Assembly: GCA_028870665.1 (NCBI GenBank) | Contig: JAGWPB010000019.1 | Span: forward strand, 1-41,984 | DNA length: 41,984 nt | Source: Lysobacteraceae bacterium | GTDB lineage: Bacteria > Pseudomonadota > Gammaproteobacteria > Xanthomonadales > Rhodanobacteraceae | Reading direction: 5' to 3' | Part shown: one piece after another, positions 4,242-8,326 of the stretch | Layout: every line of letters starts with the position of its first letter | Numbering within the stretch: the stretch's first letter is position 1 | The notes under the pieces: generated by a model | The model's input: only the letters and a program-made list of their open reading frames with translations | Databases searched by the model: none | Told to the model about the DNA's origin: nothing | Program-made: the position numbers and the translations under genes

Positions 4242-4404
4242 GGCGGTACTCGTCGTCAGTTTCTGCATGAATTTGCCAGCGCGTCGCTCCGTGCGCAGAT
4301 GCGCAGCGGCGGTTGGCCGGAAATTGATCTGGCGCTCACGGTCTGCCGCCAACGCGGCACAGTCGAGCTGCCCGGACTGCAGCTTACCGAAGCGGAGGGT
4401 CAAG

Positions 4405-4493
4405 CCGAAGCCCTGCGGATCGAGGCGCCAGACCCGCGGGCGCGGGCGACGGGCACCGGCTCGGGTCGGTTCCTTGAGTGCGCATAATGTATA
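4405..4493. repeat. Left copy of 89-bp direct repeat (xafT 5' remnant plus dif half)
   Basis: Identical to 5963-6051 except for 5 mismatches and no gaps (84/89). On the minus strand it encodes [19 protein letters not shown] and the next 11 residues ([10 protein letters not shown]), i.e. the N-terminal region of the XafT-like protein; three residues differ from the right copy. Downstream of this (below 4405) similarity stops and the sequence becomes the pgi upstream region. I read it as the stump of an older dif-integrated element. Confidence 0.8.
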
Positions 4494-4504
4494 GGTGGTC
4501 ATGC
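4477..4504. other. Degenerate dif-like recombination joint (left end of element)
   Basis: Contains the complete XerC arm (4477-4487, AGTGCGCATAA) and central region (4488-4493, TGTATA) of dif. The XerD arm (4494-4504, GGTGGTCATGC) bears little resemblance to the TTATGTAAAAT of the intact dif at 6052-6062. One intact dif plus one half-degenerate joint is the expected outcome when an Xer-exploiting element integrates. The degenerate arm carries the ATG (minus strand, 4500-4502) of the XafT-like gene. Confidence 0.8.
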
Positions 4505-4879
4505 AGGCGCCCCCGACCGGTCCCCGGCGGCCGGGCTATCTTGGAGGCCTGTCGGCGACGGGTGCAAATCGTTCACCGGAGGGCGCGAAAAAACGCCGGG
4601 CCCCTCCCAACCCAGCAGGGACGATGCGCAGTCCAAGACGGGCAGGCGGAGCTTGACCGCGTGCGCGTTGAGGCGCTCGGTGAATTCGTGGTGCAAGGCG
4701 CCGAGGAAGGAACCGCGATTCGCCCACGGCTGCCCGGTTTCATCGAGCCACGGCTCGCCGCTGGCCTTGAAATCCTCAACGATGCCGCGGCCGGCGGCGT
4801 AGTAGGCCTGCAACGCGAAGGCGAGCGCCTGTTCAGCGCTCAGGCATTGCACCTGCGACAGCACATCAACACTCTTCAT
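4499..4879 (-). CDS. Element protein of unknown function (126 residues)
   Basis: I do not recognise this protein. It is 126 residues, apparently soluble, with a helical first half ([20 protein letters not shown]), a [15 protein letters not shown] motif, then [19 protein letters not shown] and a Pro/Gly-rich, probably disordered tail. ATG 4877-4879 is chosen for AGGGA upstream and because the residues before it in the longer frame are low-complexity. The TGA (4499-4501) lies immediately beside the dif-like core and overlaps the ATG at 4500-4502 (ATGA), so in the excised circle its translation would be coupled to xafT. In the integrated state the same ATG opens a frame running into pgi. Confidence 0.6.
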
Positions 4880-4892
4880 GGCATGATCCCTG

Positions 4893-4962
4893 CGGGGGCC
4901 ACGCCCCCGGTTGTTGTTGCACCCGCGGCACCCGGATCGCCTCGACGCTGGCCGGGTGCCGC
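4893..4962. other. Two adjacent hairpins between element genes
   Basis: Stem 4925-4935/4952-4962 (11 bp, perfect, 16-nt loop) and stem 4893-4899/4903-4909 (7 bp, 3-nt loop) fill the 94-bp gap between the RHH/SEC-C gene and the 126-residue ORF. The second lies just upstream of that ORF's start. They could be an attenuator, or a single-strand origin or packaging signal of a filamentous-phage satellite; nothing in the window decides between these. Confidence 0.55.
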
Positions 4963-4973
4963 ACCTTCCCCCC

Positions 4974-5303
4974 CTACGCAGGCGGCCCACCCGGCGCGCC
5001 GTGGCATCGCTTGTACTTGCGACCGCTGCCGCAAGGGCAGGGCTGATTGACCCCCACCACGGGCAGCCGGGCCGGCGTCGCCCCCCTGCGGACCGGGCCG
5101 GTTGTCGGTGCCGGTGCGGTCGTGGCCTGAAGGCCGGCGAAGCCCGGGGGTGGCGTGCCCTTGCGGGCCAGGTACGGCACGAACGAGCGCAGGGCCATCA
5201 CGCACAGGGCGTTGAGGCTCAGGCCGTGGTGGCTGGCGACGGCCTCGGCTTGAGCCTTGAGGTCGGGCGGCAGTCGCAGGTTGAGCTTGGCGGTTTCGGT
5301 CAT
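4974..5303 (-). CDS. Ribbon-helix-helix / SEC-C zinc-motif fusion protein
   Basis: 109 residues. Residues 5-46 form an Arc/HicB-like ribbon-helix-helix DNA-binding unit: strand KLNLRLP, helix [15 protein letters not shown], helix [15 protein letters not shown] Pro/Thr/Ala-rich linker (about 48-85) leads to a C-terminal SEC-C motif, C89-P-C91-GSGRKYKR-C100-H101, which in SecA binds zinc. It is probably an autoregulatory repressor of the element. Three 11-bp repeats overlapping a promoter lie 18-48 bp upstream of its ATG (5301-5303), and RHH repressors commonly bind tandem operators. It could instead be an antitoxin-like protein, but no toxin gene adjoins it. A long frame covering this region in the xafT reading frame is a GC-driven shadow. 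Confidence 0.8.
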
Positions 5304-5320
5304 GGCAGGTCCCGGAAGTG

Positions 5321-5353
5321 TGGCCCCATTGTGGCCCCATTATGGCCCCGTGG
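5321..5353. repeat. Three 11-bp iterons (candidate operator)
   Basis: TGGCCCCAT repeated at 5321, 5332 and 5343 (third copy TGGCCCCGT) with an exact 11-bp period, so the copies lie on one face of the helix. They overlap the -10 element of the promoter at 5339-5367 and lie directly upstream of the RHH/SEC-C gene. They are a likely binding site of the RHH protein, or less probably an origin iteron set. Confidence 0.65.
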
Positions 5354-5367
5354 CGATCCCCCTGAAA
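5339..5367 (-). promoter_or_regulatory. Candidate promoter of the element operon
   Basis: On the minus strand TTTCAG (5362-5367), a 17-bp spacer, and CATAAT (5339-5344). The -10 lies between the second and third iteron. It would drive the RHH/SEC-C gene and the 126-residue ORF. Beyond them, transcription would reach xafT in the circle or pgi in the integrated chromosome. Confidence 0.45.
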
Positions 5368-5380
5368 GCCGTGCCGTTGC

Positions 5381-6051
5381 TCACTTTCGGCGGTTGGCGT
5401 GCCCTTTGTTATAGAAGGGACAAGCCCAGAGGCGGCGGCGCCGGGCGCTGGCGCGCCCGCCGCCTGCCGCCCGAGGCCCTCGACCCGGTCCCTGAACCGG
5501 GCCAGCCGGCCGCCGGACGGTCGCAAAGCGGGTTTGGCGGGACGGTGGCCGCTGGGGGCCACCGGCGGCCGGGACTCCGACCCCGCGCCCTCGAGGCCAG
5601 CCCGTCGGAGCGTCACGGCCTGCGGCCTCGCGGGGGCTGCCGCCCCCACACCCCCGGCGTGTTCGCGGTCGTAGCGGGTGCGAAAGGCGCGCGCCTGCGC
5701 CACCAGCAGCGACCAATAACCCAGATCGGACGCGGCAAAGGTGCGGCCTTCCGGGCTGCGCAGCAGGCTGCCGTGCAGCGTCCAGCCGGTCCACGCCGGC
5801 GCCAGTGTCCCCAGATCACCCTGGCGCAGCAGCCGCAGCAGGCGCACCACCGGCCACGGGACCCGGCAGCGGCCGGCCTCCCAGTAATGCACCGTCCGCA
5901 GGCTGACGCCGAGCCAGTCCGCGGCCGCGCGGCGGGTCAGCAGGCACGACCGGCGCAGCTCCCCGAAGCCCTGCGGATCGAGGCGCCAGACCCGCGGGCG
6001 CGGGCGTTGGGCGCCGGCTCGGGCCGGTCCCTTGAGTGCGCATAATGTATA
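5381..6051 (-). CDS. XafT/VC1465-like Xer recombination activation factor, start codon displaced by integration
   Basis: The family member XafT of the V. cholerae TLC satellite phage contacts and activates XerD, allowing FtsK-independent recombination at dif. The match is by domain appearance: an HTH-like segment (LTRRAAADWLGVSLRTVHYW), then WEAGRCRVPWPVVRLLRLLR, then PAWTGWTLHGSLLRSPEGR and LGYWSLLVAQARAFRTRYD, as in DUF3653-type proteins. In this orientation the frame is preceded by TAA at 6052-6054 inside dif and has no ATG or TTG before the domain. The first GTG (5892) would remove the HTH. The native ATG is at 4500-4502 across the excision joint. The main frame stays open to 4876 over the SEC-C gene, which is implausible. 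A one-base change near 5410-5413 would switch to a frame ending PFYNKGHANRRK with its stop at 5381, used here as the end. Confidence 0.7.
5963..6051. repeat. Right copy of 89-bp direct repeat (xafT 5' region plus dif half)
   Basis: Partner of 4405-4493 (84/89 identical). It is continuous with the rest of the xafT-like gene, so this is the functional copy. The last 17 bp are the XerC arm and core of dif. Confidence 0.8.
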
Positions 6052-6062
6052 TTATGTAAAAT
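6035..6062. other. dif: Chromosomal dif site (XerCD dimer-resolution site)
   Basis: 28 bp: XerC arm AGTGCGCATAA (6035-6045), central TGTATA (6046-6051), XerD arm TTATGTAAAAT (6052-6062). From memory of the E. coli site this differs at two positions, the first base of the XerC arm and one base in the XerD arm. It lies 51 bp from the end of tadA. The polarity of FtsK-orienting octamers changes here, which supports it being the working terminus site. Confidence 0.93.
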
Positions 6063-6078
6063 ATTAGAAGGAGACGAA

Positions 6079-6129
6079 ATGCCCAGAGCCAACGCACCCA
6101 AGGCCACTGAGGTTCAGCGCCGCCGTTGA
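6079..6129 (+). CDS. Doubtful 16-codon ORF with a strong ribosome binding site beside dif
   Basis: AGAAGGAGACGAA directly precedes an ATG at 6079; the frame encodes MPRANAPKATEVQRRR and stops at 6127-6129, inside the 3' end of tadA on the opposite strand. The Shine-Dalgarno is the best near dif, which makes it worth noting. It could be the severed 5' end of a gene lost during earlier integration or deletion events, or chance. Confidence 0.25.
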   Translation: MPRANAPKATEVQRRR

Positions 6130-6629
6130 AAGAAGTCACGCAGCAGCGCCGCGCTGAGCTCGGCATCGAGTCCGCTCGCGACGGCGATGCGATGGTTGTG
6201 CTGCGGCGAGATCAGCGTGTCGAACACGCTGCCTGCGGCCCCGGTCTTGGGATCAGGGGTCGCGTAGATCACCTTGGCGACGCGCGCGTGCACCAGCGCC
6301 ATGGCGCACATGGCGCACGGTTCGAGGGTCACGTAGAGCGTGCTGCCGGGCAATCGGTAATTGTGCTGCTGCTGCCCGGCTGCGCGCAGGGCGACGATCT
6401 CGGCGTGGGCGGTCGGATCGTGCGAGTTGACCGTGCGATTCCAGCCCTCGCCGATCGCCTTGCCGTCCAGAACCAGCACGGCACCGACCGGCACTTCATC
6501 GTGCATCTCGCCGGCATGGCGGGCCAGCTCCAAGGCGCGCTGCATCCAGCGGACATCCTCGGCACTGAAACGGTGCGCCGGGGTTGGCGGCAAAGGGGCT
6601 GACGGAACGATCGGCGGTGAGGTCGGCAT
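6114..6629 (-). CDS. tadA: tRNA-specific adenosine deaminase
   Basis: Deaminates A34 to inosine in tRNA-Arg(ACG). 171 residues with the cytidine-deaminase zinc signature: H75-A-E77 (catalytic glutamate) and P104-C105-AM-C108. The first 18 residues (Pro-rich) extend beyond the usual E. coli-type N-terminus, so a later start is possible, but no better Met lies before RFSAEDVRWMQRALELA. The gene ends 51 bp from dif and lies 50 bp downstream of guaA on the same strand. Confidence 0.94.
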   Translation of the reverse strand: MPTSPPIVPSAPLPPTPAHRFSAEDVRWMQRALELARHAGEMHDEVPVGAVLVLDGKAIGEGWNRTVNSHDPTAHAEIVALRAAGQQQHNYRLPGSTLYVTLEPCAMCAMALVHARVAKVIYATPDPKTGAAGSVFDTLISPQHNHRIAVASGLDAELSAALLRDFFQRRR

Positions 6630-6679
6630 GGGCTGCGATGAAATCCGCGGCGGTCACGGGCGTAAGTCAGCGCGCGGAC

Positions 6680-8326
6680 CTACTCCCACTCGATCGTGGC
6701 CGGCGGCTTGCCACTGATGTCGTAAACAACGCGAGAAATACCATTCAACTCATTGATAATACATAGAGAAACCTCTTCGAGGAACTCGTACGGCAGGCGC
6801 GCCCAGCGGGCCGTCATGAAGTCGACGGTCTCGACCGCGCGCAGCGCGATCACCCACTCGTAGGCGCGACCGTCACCAACGACACCAACGGATTTCACGG
6901 GCAGGAACACCGCGAAGGCCTGGCTGACGCGGTCGTAGAGGTCGTGCCTGTGCAAGGCCTGGATGAACAGATGATCAGCCTGCTGCAGCAAGGCGACGTA
7001 TTCGGGCCTGATCGCGCCCAGCACGCGAACGCCCAGCCCCGGGCCGGGGAACGGATGCCGGTAGACCATCGCGCGCGGCAGGCCGAGCTCGACGCCGATC
7101 CGGCGCACCTCATCCTTGAACAGCTCGCGCAACGGCTCGACCAGTTTCAGATGCATGCGTTCGGGCAGGCCGCCGACATTGTGGTGGCTCTTGATCACGT
7201 GCGCCTTGCCGGTTTTCGCTCCCGCCGACTCGATCACGTCGGGGTAGATCGTGCCTTGCGCCAGCCACTTCACGCCTTCGAGCTTGTGCGACTCCTCGTC
7301 GAATACCTCGACGAACAGGCGGCCGATGATCTTGCGCTTGGCCTCGGGATCCTCGATGCCGGCGAGCGCCGCGAAAAAGCGCTCGGCCGCGTTGACGCGG
7401 ATGACATGCACGCCCATGTGCTCGGCCATGGTCGCCATCACCTGATCGCCCTCGCCGAGGCGCAGCAGGCCGGTGTCGACGAAGACGCAGGTCAGCTGCG
7501 TGCCGATGGCCTTTTCGAGCAGCGCGGCGACCACCGAGGAATCGACACCACCGGACAGACCCAGCAGCACCCGGTCCTGACCGACTTTGGCGCGAACGCG
7601 CGCGATGGCGTCCTCGATGATGCGCGCGGGCGTCCACAGCGTGGCGCAGCCGCAGATGTCGACCACGAATCGCCGCAGGATCTCGCTGCCACGCGTGGTG
7701 TGCGTGACCTCGGGATGGAACTGCACGCCGTAGTAGTGGCGCGCCTCGTCGGCCATGGCGACGACTGCGACGCTGGCGGTGGACGCCACTGCGGAGAAGC
7801 CGGCGGGTACTGCGGTAACGCGATCGCCGTGCGACATCCAGACATCCAGCACGCGGCGCGTGTCGGTCGGCGCGGGCGTCGCGTCCAGCGGCGGCGTGGC
7901 GCGCTGGGAAGGCGCATCCGGAGCTTGACGCGCCGTCCCGTCCTGGTCGTCCAGCGCATCGAACAGCCGGCACGATCCGGTCAGCTCGACCGCGGCGTAG
8001 CCGAACTCGCGGGCATGACCGCCCTCGACGCGGCCACCCAGTTGCGCGGCCATGGCCTGCATGCCGTAGCAGATGCCGAAGACCGGCACGCCCCGATCGA
8101 ACACGGCATCGGGCACCCTCGGCGAACCCGTCTCGGTCACCGACTCGGGTCCGCCGGACAGGATCACGCCTTTCGGTGCGTAACGCGTGATGTCAGCCGG
8201 GTCATGGTCCCAGGCCCAGATTTCGCAATACACGCCGATCTCGCGCACGCGGCGGGCGATCAGCTGCGTGTACTGCGAGCCGAAGTCGAGGATCAGGATC
8301 TTGTCGCTGTGGATGTTCGTTGGCAT
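6680..8326 (-). CDS. guaA: GMP synthase (glutamine-hydrolysing)
   Basis: Converts XMP to GMP using glutamine and ATP, the step after GuaB. 548 residues from ATG 8324-8326, just before [20 protein letters not shown]. The class I glutamine amidotransferase domain has nucleophile C86 (FGICYGMQ); the ATP-pyrophosphatase loop is [11 protein letters not shown], and the C-terminus ends PPATIEWE. The protein is about 23 residues longer than E. coli GuaA because of a Pro/Ala-rich insertion at about residues 128-155, between LFDAL and DVWMSHGD in the amidotransferase domain. Upstream in-frame codons to 8482 cover 7-bp tandem repeats and are not coding. It follows guaB by 152 bp, probably as guaBA. Confidence 0.96.

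Follow-up and report, generated by a model that had tools for sequence, protein, structure and literature searches.

A mobile element at dif in a Rhodanobacteraceae contig parts a putative XerD-activator gene from its start codon

The window analysed here (41,984 nucleotides; positions 1 to 41,984 of contig JAGWPB010000019.1, assembly GCA_028870665.1) comes from a Lysobacteraceae bacterium that GTDB places in the Rhodanobacteraceae, and carries at 4494-6051 an integrated element of 1558 bp with a GC content of 0.73, in which a gene resembling xafT, the putative activator of the host recombinase XerD, is cut off from its start codon. On its right the element ends in a complete dif site (6035-6062, plus strand), with the XerC arm (6035-6045) on the element side, the core TGTATA at 6046-6051 and the XerD arm (6052-6062) on the chromosome side. 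The left attachment site (4477-4504, plus strand) consists of an XerC arm (4477-4487), the core (4488-4493) and a degenerate XerD arm (4494-4504), in which a start codon lies; the site reads AGTGCGCATAA TGTATA and then GGTGGTCATGC. XerC arm and core are thus dif-like and the XerD arm is degenerate, which is also how PMC4246890 describes the attP of TLC-phi.

The element is mobile, as a contig from another genome (G010; G, C and L numbers denote our genomes, contigs and loci) has flanks 99.6% and 99.9% identical to those of the window and an intact dif but lacks the 1558 bp. This contig with its window-like flanks (L052, G010:C182) bears another genus code of the same family and is perhaps misbinned. 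The insertion lies exactly at dif, with the core duplicated and dif retained, and none of the three likely genes of the element, all on the minus strand (helix-turn-helix (HTH) plus DUF3653, ribbon-helix-helix/SEC-C, and open reading frame (ORF) 3), was seen to be a recombinase. These are the features of integrative mobile elements exploiting Xer (IMEX), and the element most likely entered dif by XerCD-mediated integration through its TLC-like attachment site. Its ends form an 89-nt direct repeat, 94% identical and spaced by 1558. The left repeat (4405-4493, minus strand) lies outside the element and adjoins pgi; since it is present in the empty site too, in the left-end version, it is best read as the remnant of an older element's xafT, that is, as a probable fossil of about the first 30 codons. 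A similar remnant of 34 codons lies beside dif in G130 (L053).

The gene next to dif is a minus-strand frame (5647-6051; its C-terminal end is provisional, as the frame is open to 4876) with matches to HTH_31 (PF13560, 27.8 bits at a cut-off of 27) and DUF3653 (PF12375, 27.2 bits at a cut-off of 22.4). An HTH followed by DUF3653 is what we take to be the domain make-up of XafT, and the name xafT rests here on these domains and on the TLC-type attP. Several phage proteins of this type are annotated as regulators, and the product might accordingly be a repressor or other regulator and no XerD activator, its beheading then relieving or imposing regulation. We consider this improbable, as an HTH-DUF3653 protein beside dif in an element with no visible recombinase fits XafT as we presume it to be built. 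Moreover, PMC9765430 cites the XafT of TLC-phi as a factor that activates XerD.

A preliminary description of this DNA had claimed that the frame abuts a stop codon in dif and is startless ahead of its HTH. This is the case: the frame follows directly on TAA (6054-6052) within the XerD arm and contains no ATG, GTG or TTG until the GTG at 5890-5892 (minus strand), which encodes the V of the HTH stretch RTVHYWE. The missing beginning lies at the opposite end of the element, where the left core, identical to that of dif, runs on the minus strand into ATG ACC ACC (4502-4494), the proposed first three codons of xafT, in the phase of the right-end frame (read as TAT ACA). In the frame joined at the core, residues 4-9 (YTLCAL) are encoded by the 17 nt of core and XerC arm, the last codon being shared. 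The description was right on both these points as well, and we hold the sequence facts on the beheaded frame and its far-end start with very high confidence.

The joined frame occurs naturally in four tandem arrays (G169, G339, G1054 and G1153). In the latter three the copy proximal to dif is headless and the next copy has an in-frame ATG or GTG; the first copies of G1054 and G339 contain an internal GTG and an ATG at codon 21, respectively. Junction-type cores directly before an xafT match are in phase in six of seven cases (G099, G169, G339, G868, G1054 and G1153), among which G099 is a remnant and G868 belongs to a third family of the order.

Relatives of the gene were found in 52 of 233 genomes at family level, in 109 of 398 by a profile search at order level, many of these matches being weak and confined to the HTH part, and in 5 of 369 by a DUF3653 search at class level (own genome included each time). 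A second family, f108, gave matches in 11 of 150 and then in 24 of 399 genomes, the two draws overlapping. A match in G573 was not usable as xafT. The named homologues (28 loci) are mostly from Rhodanobacter, the others from Dyella, Frateuria, Luteibacter and their kin, and the arrangement is present in two GTDB families, f1 and f108, whose XerC-arm letters differ. No relative of the window protein was found in phage or plasmid records or in IMG/VR. With the homologue from G339, phages and plasmids yielded distant matches only (<60% identity), and no TLC-phi record was among the matches listed (60 of 62).

The far ends of these elements were scored by one uniform script, which accepted only an ATG or GTG at most 10 codons from the core with no stop in between. 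In 34 matches the frame was in phase A or C relative to the core and open into a dif-type core, that of G196 being doubtful. Excluded from this count were 11 matches without the N-terminus of the profile, four phase-B rows, G157, whose frame is closed to the core, and 17 matches without a dif-type XerD arm upstream, which include G135 and G169 (twice each), the inner copies of G099 and G339, G154 and G156. An in-phase ATG or GTG lies one to eight codons before the core in all 15 elements whose far end was located, and of the 30 off-phase readings at the same far ends (two per element), three offered a start (Fisher p 2e-9, to be taken as a guide only since the rows are related). Outside the scoring rule, G145 and G169 were both found in phase by hand. 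Applied to a second draw from f108, this rule found four of six in phase (off-phases 1/12). Adding G1100 by hand makes five of seven (off-phases 2/14), its dif-proximal element being in phase C with an ATG at -7 of its far end, likewise in phase C. The check proposed in the preliminary description, an in-phase start a few codons past the core in homologous elements, is thus borne out in all scored elements of the first draw and in most of the second.

In an XafT phylogeny of the 17 elements whose ends agree, phases A and C are interspersed, with six changes on the best tree, at least three of which fall on well-supported branches. In this analysis the far-end label was set to that of the right end, as all scored cases agreed, and a pair test only restates that agreement. 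Since the phase of the gene changed repeatedly on the tree, the far end must have shifted phase alongside each time. The match in phase between the two ends does not come from shared ancestry alone, and the relatives speak against chance.

In the window the xafT ATG overlaps the TGA of ORF3 as ATGA, and in 10 of 10 scored f1 elements (G000, G099, G150, G180, G085, G041, G202, G056, G145 and G169; counted without a chance control) the start and the stop of an upstream ORF overlap, by 4 or 8 nt, or adjoin (TAATG), the upstream ORF in G056 having only 34 aa. Such start/stop overlaps are a usual sign of translational coupling. The strength of the Shine-Dalgarno (SD) sequence at the far end lies above the element background overall (Fisher combined p 2e-4), a signal carried by six of eight f1 elements.

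We suggest that the degenerate XerD arm of attP, beside XerC arm and core, also serves to start the translation of xafT. ORF3, ATG, core and xafT would be continuous in the circle and at the inner junction of a same-phase tandem. There, full-length XafT could be made, which would activate XerD for recombination with dif. Integration of a single copy would replace the degenerate arm by the real XerD arm, so that the start is lost and an antisense TAA is gained; a lone copy would make no activator and hence stay put, and the arrival of another copy of its type would rebuild the joined gene and re-arm recombination. Transcripts from the tadA side could span the headless gene without giving full-length XafT. 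Read antisense, the XerD arm of dif supplies TAA in phase A and, in phase C, either TGA/TAA or no stop, one base deciding between them, and the arm swap at integration therefore exchanges start for stop in most cases.

Taken together, the best explanation overall is that the circle and same-type tandems yield the activator and that a lone copy does not, and we give it a rough probability of 0.74. The activity of XafT, the silence of the lone copy and an effect on excision are inferred here from DNA sequence, and the parts of this explanation are not equally firm. We regard it as very probable that the joint gene is used in circle or tandem and as highly probable that the single xafT copy in the window is silent; that a selected switch controls excision appears to us rather probable. 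By a narrow balance we also favour the fuller proposal of a bacterial "suicidal" module, in which the XerD arm of attP would owe its degeneracy to the activator start that it contains, the XerD arm of dif would supply stops in the corresponding phases, and a lone copy would be locked until an incoming or tandem copy of the same type re-arms excision. The loss of XafT in lone copies might instead be a tolerated side effect of an attP that evolved within a coding region, with no selected switch at all. This we think the less probable course, albeit one to be taken seriously. Variants exist in which xafT has its own start after dif or an ATG inside dif, and three filamentous phages have their attP in another ORF of the operon while the DUF3653 ORF keeps its start. 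Against it, phase locking over three to six changes and the overlaps in f1 show that the joined gene has been kept functional, yet they do not in themselves reveal selection for silence in the integrated state.

Several further observations weigh against silencing by loss of the start. For 19 of the 34 phase-A/C right ends the far end was not located, and the second draw contains two misses, G1041, which has a startless far end but an in-frame ATG in the XerC arm, and G1232, with a doubtful match at 11 kb only and a truncated xafT. In f108 the start overlaps the stop of an upstream ORF in only one of seven elements (G951), and the SD sequence is at background in 7 of 7 scored. The preliminary description had inferred that XafT is made from a tandem array as well as from the circle. 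The same-phase arrays of G169, G339, G1054 and G1153 do contain the joined frame, but not the mixed array of G1100 (L193), where the element at dif is in phase C and the one behind it in phase A, leaving the distal xafT startless in its phase; since this distal gene is unjoined, only same-phase tandems would restore the gene. The window has, within ORF3 at 4617-4594 (minus strand), a terminator-like hairpin with a T run; it precedes the ATG of xafT by about 90-95 nt and would, if real, stop read-through from ORF3 into xafT. In the circle xafT may then have a promoter of its own; no sigma-70-like promoter was found in 4400-6700.

Other relatives have a different start altogether. An own start after dif is found in G135, G154, G156, G157 and G274; in G135, which belongs to the genus of the window, it consists of an SD sequence (GGGAGG) and an ATG, and xafT is out of frame with the core. 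G274, from a third family, has two DUF3653 genes at contig ends (L133 and L132), each beginning at dif or at a dif-like arm; one of them has its own SD sequence and ATG. In G100, G193, G739 and G802 an ATG lies inside dif; G1222 has the same phase without the ATG. At the far end of G739, GGGGGA stands 8 nt before the dif ATG, and integration would there remove the ribosome site instead. Homologues starting inside the right end, which the preliminary description had named as evidence against its reading, thus do exist, as these other types, while the copy in the window is itself beheaded: beheading is absolute in the window and not in every relative.

Integrated copies might also still make XafT, from an internal GTG or ATG, from a non-standard start, or from the ATG of dif with frameshifting. 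An internal ATG or GTG ahead of the profile match is present in 16 of the 34 phase-A/C right ends, and four of the others (G339, G983, G994 and G909) have an ATG just inside the match. Moreover, dif carries an ATG in another frame, and between dif and the first internal ATG of G339/G983 the signal of coding constraint is suggestive only (simulated fractions of 0.06-0.13, underpowered). However, the remaining 18 of 34, including the window, have no internal ATG or GTG ahead of that match, the SD energies of most internal starts are weaker than those of the f1 far-end starts, and the conserved residues R20 and W22 lie upstream of the first start available to the window copy. Synthesis from the integrated copy therefore seems unlikely to us.

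The other two genes of the window element are ORF3 (4499-4879, minus strand, 126 aa), which gave no Pfam or PHROG match at E 0.1, and a gene for a protein of 109 aa (4974-5303, minus strand) with a ribbon-helix-helix (HicB family) domain and a SEC-C motif. The dif region is flanked by a pgi-type frame (minus strand, ending at 2553) and by tadA- and guaA-type genes (minus strand, from 6114 upward), all three named from a reading of their translations. The left ATG and the pgi-containing open frame (4502-2553, minus strand, 649 aa) are in frame via the fossil, and integration could in this way yield an N-terminally extended Pgi that begins at the left ATG of the element.

The four largest f1 elements scored (G099, G150, G180 and G085; L035, L034, L038 and L041; 2.3-2.5 kb) share a long ORF between xafT and ORF3, which in G150, the one element in which this identity was tested, matches a rolling-circle Rep of the G2P type (PF23343, E 2e-34). 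By eye, no such long ORF was seen among the same-strand ORFs of at least 55 aa in the smaller elements (1.2-2.0 kb, window included), which may be satellites of their Rep-bearing larger relatives. In L005, L007, L013, L017 and L022 another frame, lying between dif and the HTH and overlapping the xafT N-terminus, resembles by eye a small membrane peptide (e.g. MRRPEPSPPALWAALWLALA). Two closely spaced xafT pairs in opposite orientation were also seen, at L142 (G196:C34), where the pair flanks one dif, and at L137 (G861).

How does this arrangement compare with known systems? Circle-only expression of the integrase, as from Pcirc of ICEclc, and integration-dependent phage immunity are cases in which the output differs between circle and integrated form; they act via a promoter or a truncated repressor, whereas the window element moves the start codon itself. 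The satellite phage TLC-phi of Vibrio cholerae and other TLC-type IMEX resemble it in integration at dif and in the degenerate XerD arm of attP (PMC4246890), and TLC-phi also in encoding an XerD-activating factor (cited in PMC9765430), but the window element has only 1.56 kb and no Rep was seen in it. The filamentous phages XacF1, Cf1c, phiLf and SMA9 of Xanthomonas and Stenotrophomonas likewise have attP inside a gene of an HTH/DUF3653 operon; for XacF1 its authors place attP within ORF12, which integration may split (PMC4076744). Six phage regions were compared: in three of them (phiLf, SMA9 and Cf1c) the core is located within the ORF that immediately precedes the DUF3653 ORF, NO16-VIB1 has a core with one mismatch outside annotated genes, and phiSHP2 and PE001 have no core in the stretch fetched. 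In these filamentous phages, however, the core falls in the 3' portion of the preceding ORF and leaves the start of the DUF3653 ORF intact, whereas in the window element a single HTH-DUF3653 protein loses its first codons.

A further parallel is provided by archaeal integrases of the SSV type, whose attachment site lies in the recombination gene itself, so that the gene is disrupted on integration and has to be supplied intact from elsewhere; such self-disrupting recombinases are called exclusively archaeal in PMC8371274. The window gene shares with these suicidal integrases an attachment site inside a gene for recombination that is split on integration. It differs in being bacterial, in encoding a putative activator of the host XerCD, and in losing only its start and first codons. 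It is no suicidal integrase proper, as the split gene is of the HTH/DUF3653 type and no tyrosine recombinase, but it may work like one. In the literature covered on XafT and Xer, on DUF3653 and on attP start codons, with the original TLC-phi XafT paper lying outside that coverage, we did not find the arrangement described. The original XafT paper may already note it.

In integrated copies, such genes may be overlooked or called too short by gene-finding programs. If the proposed silencing of the activator in lone copies is true, it would explain how elements that hijack an ever-present host recombinase escape expulsion, namely because recombination removes the start codon of their activator, and a function would emerge for the unusual XerD arm in attachment sites of the TLC type. 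Single and tandem copies would then differ sharply in stability, and these elements would provide a bacterial counterpart of the archaeal self-splitting integrases.

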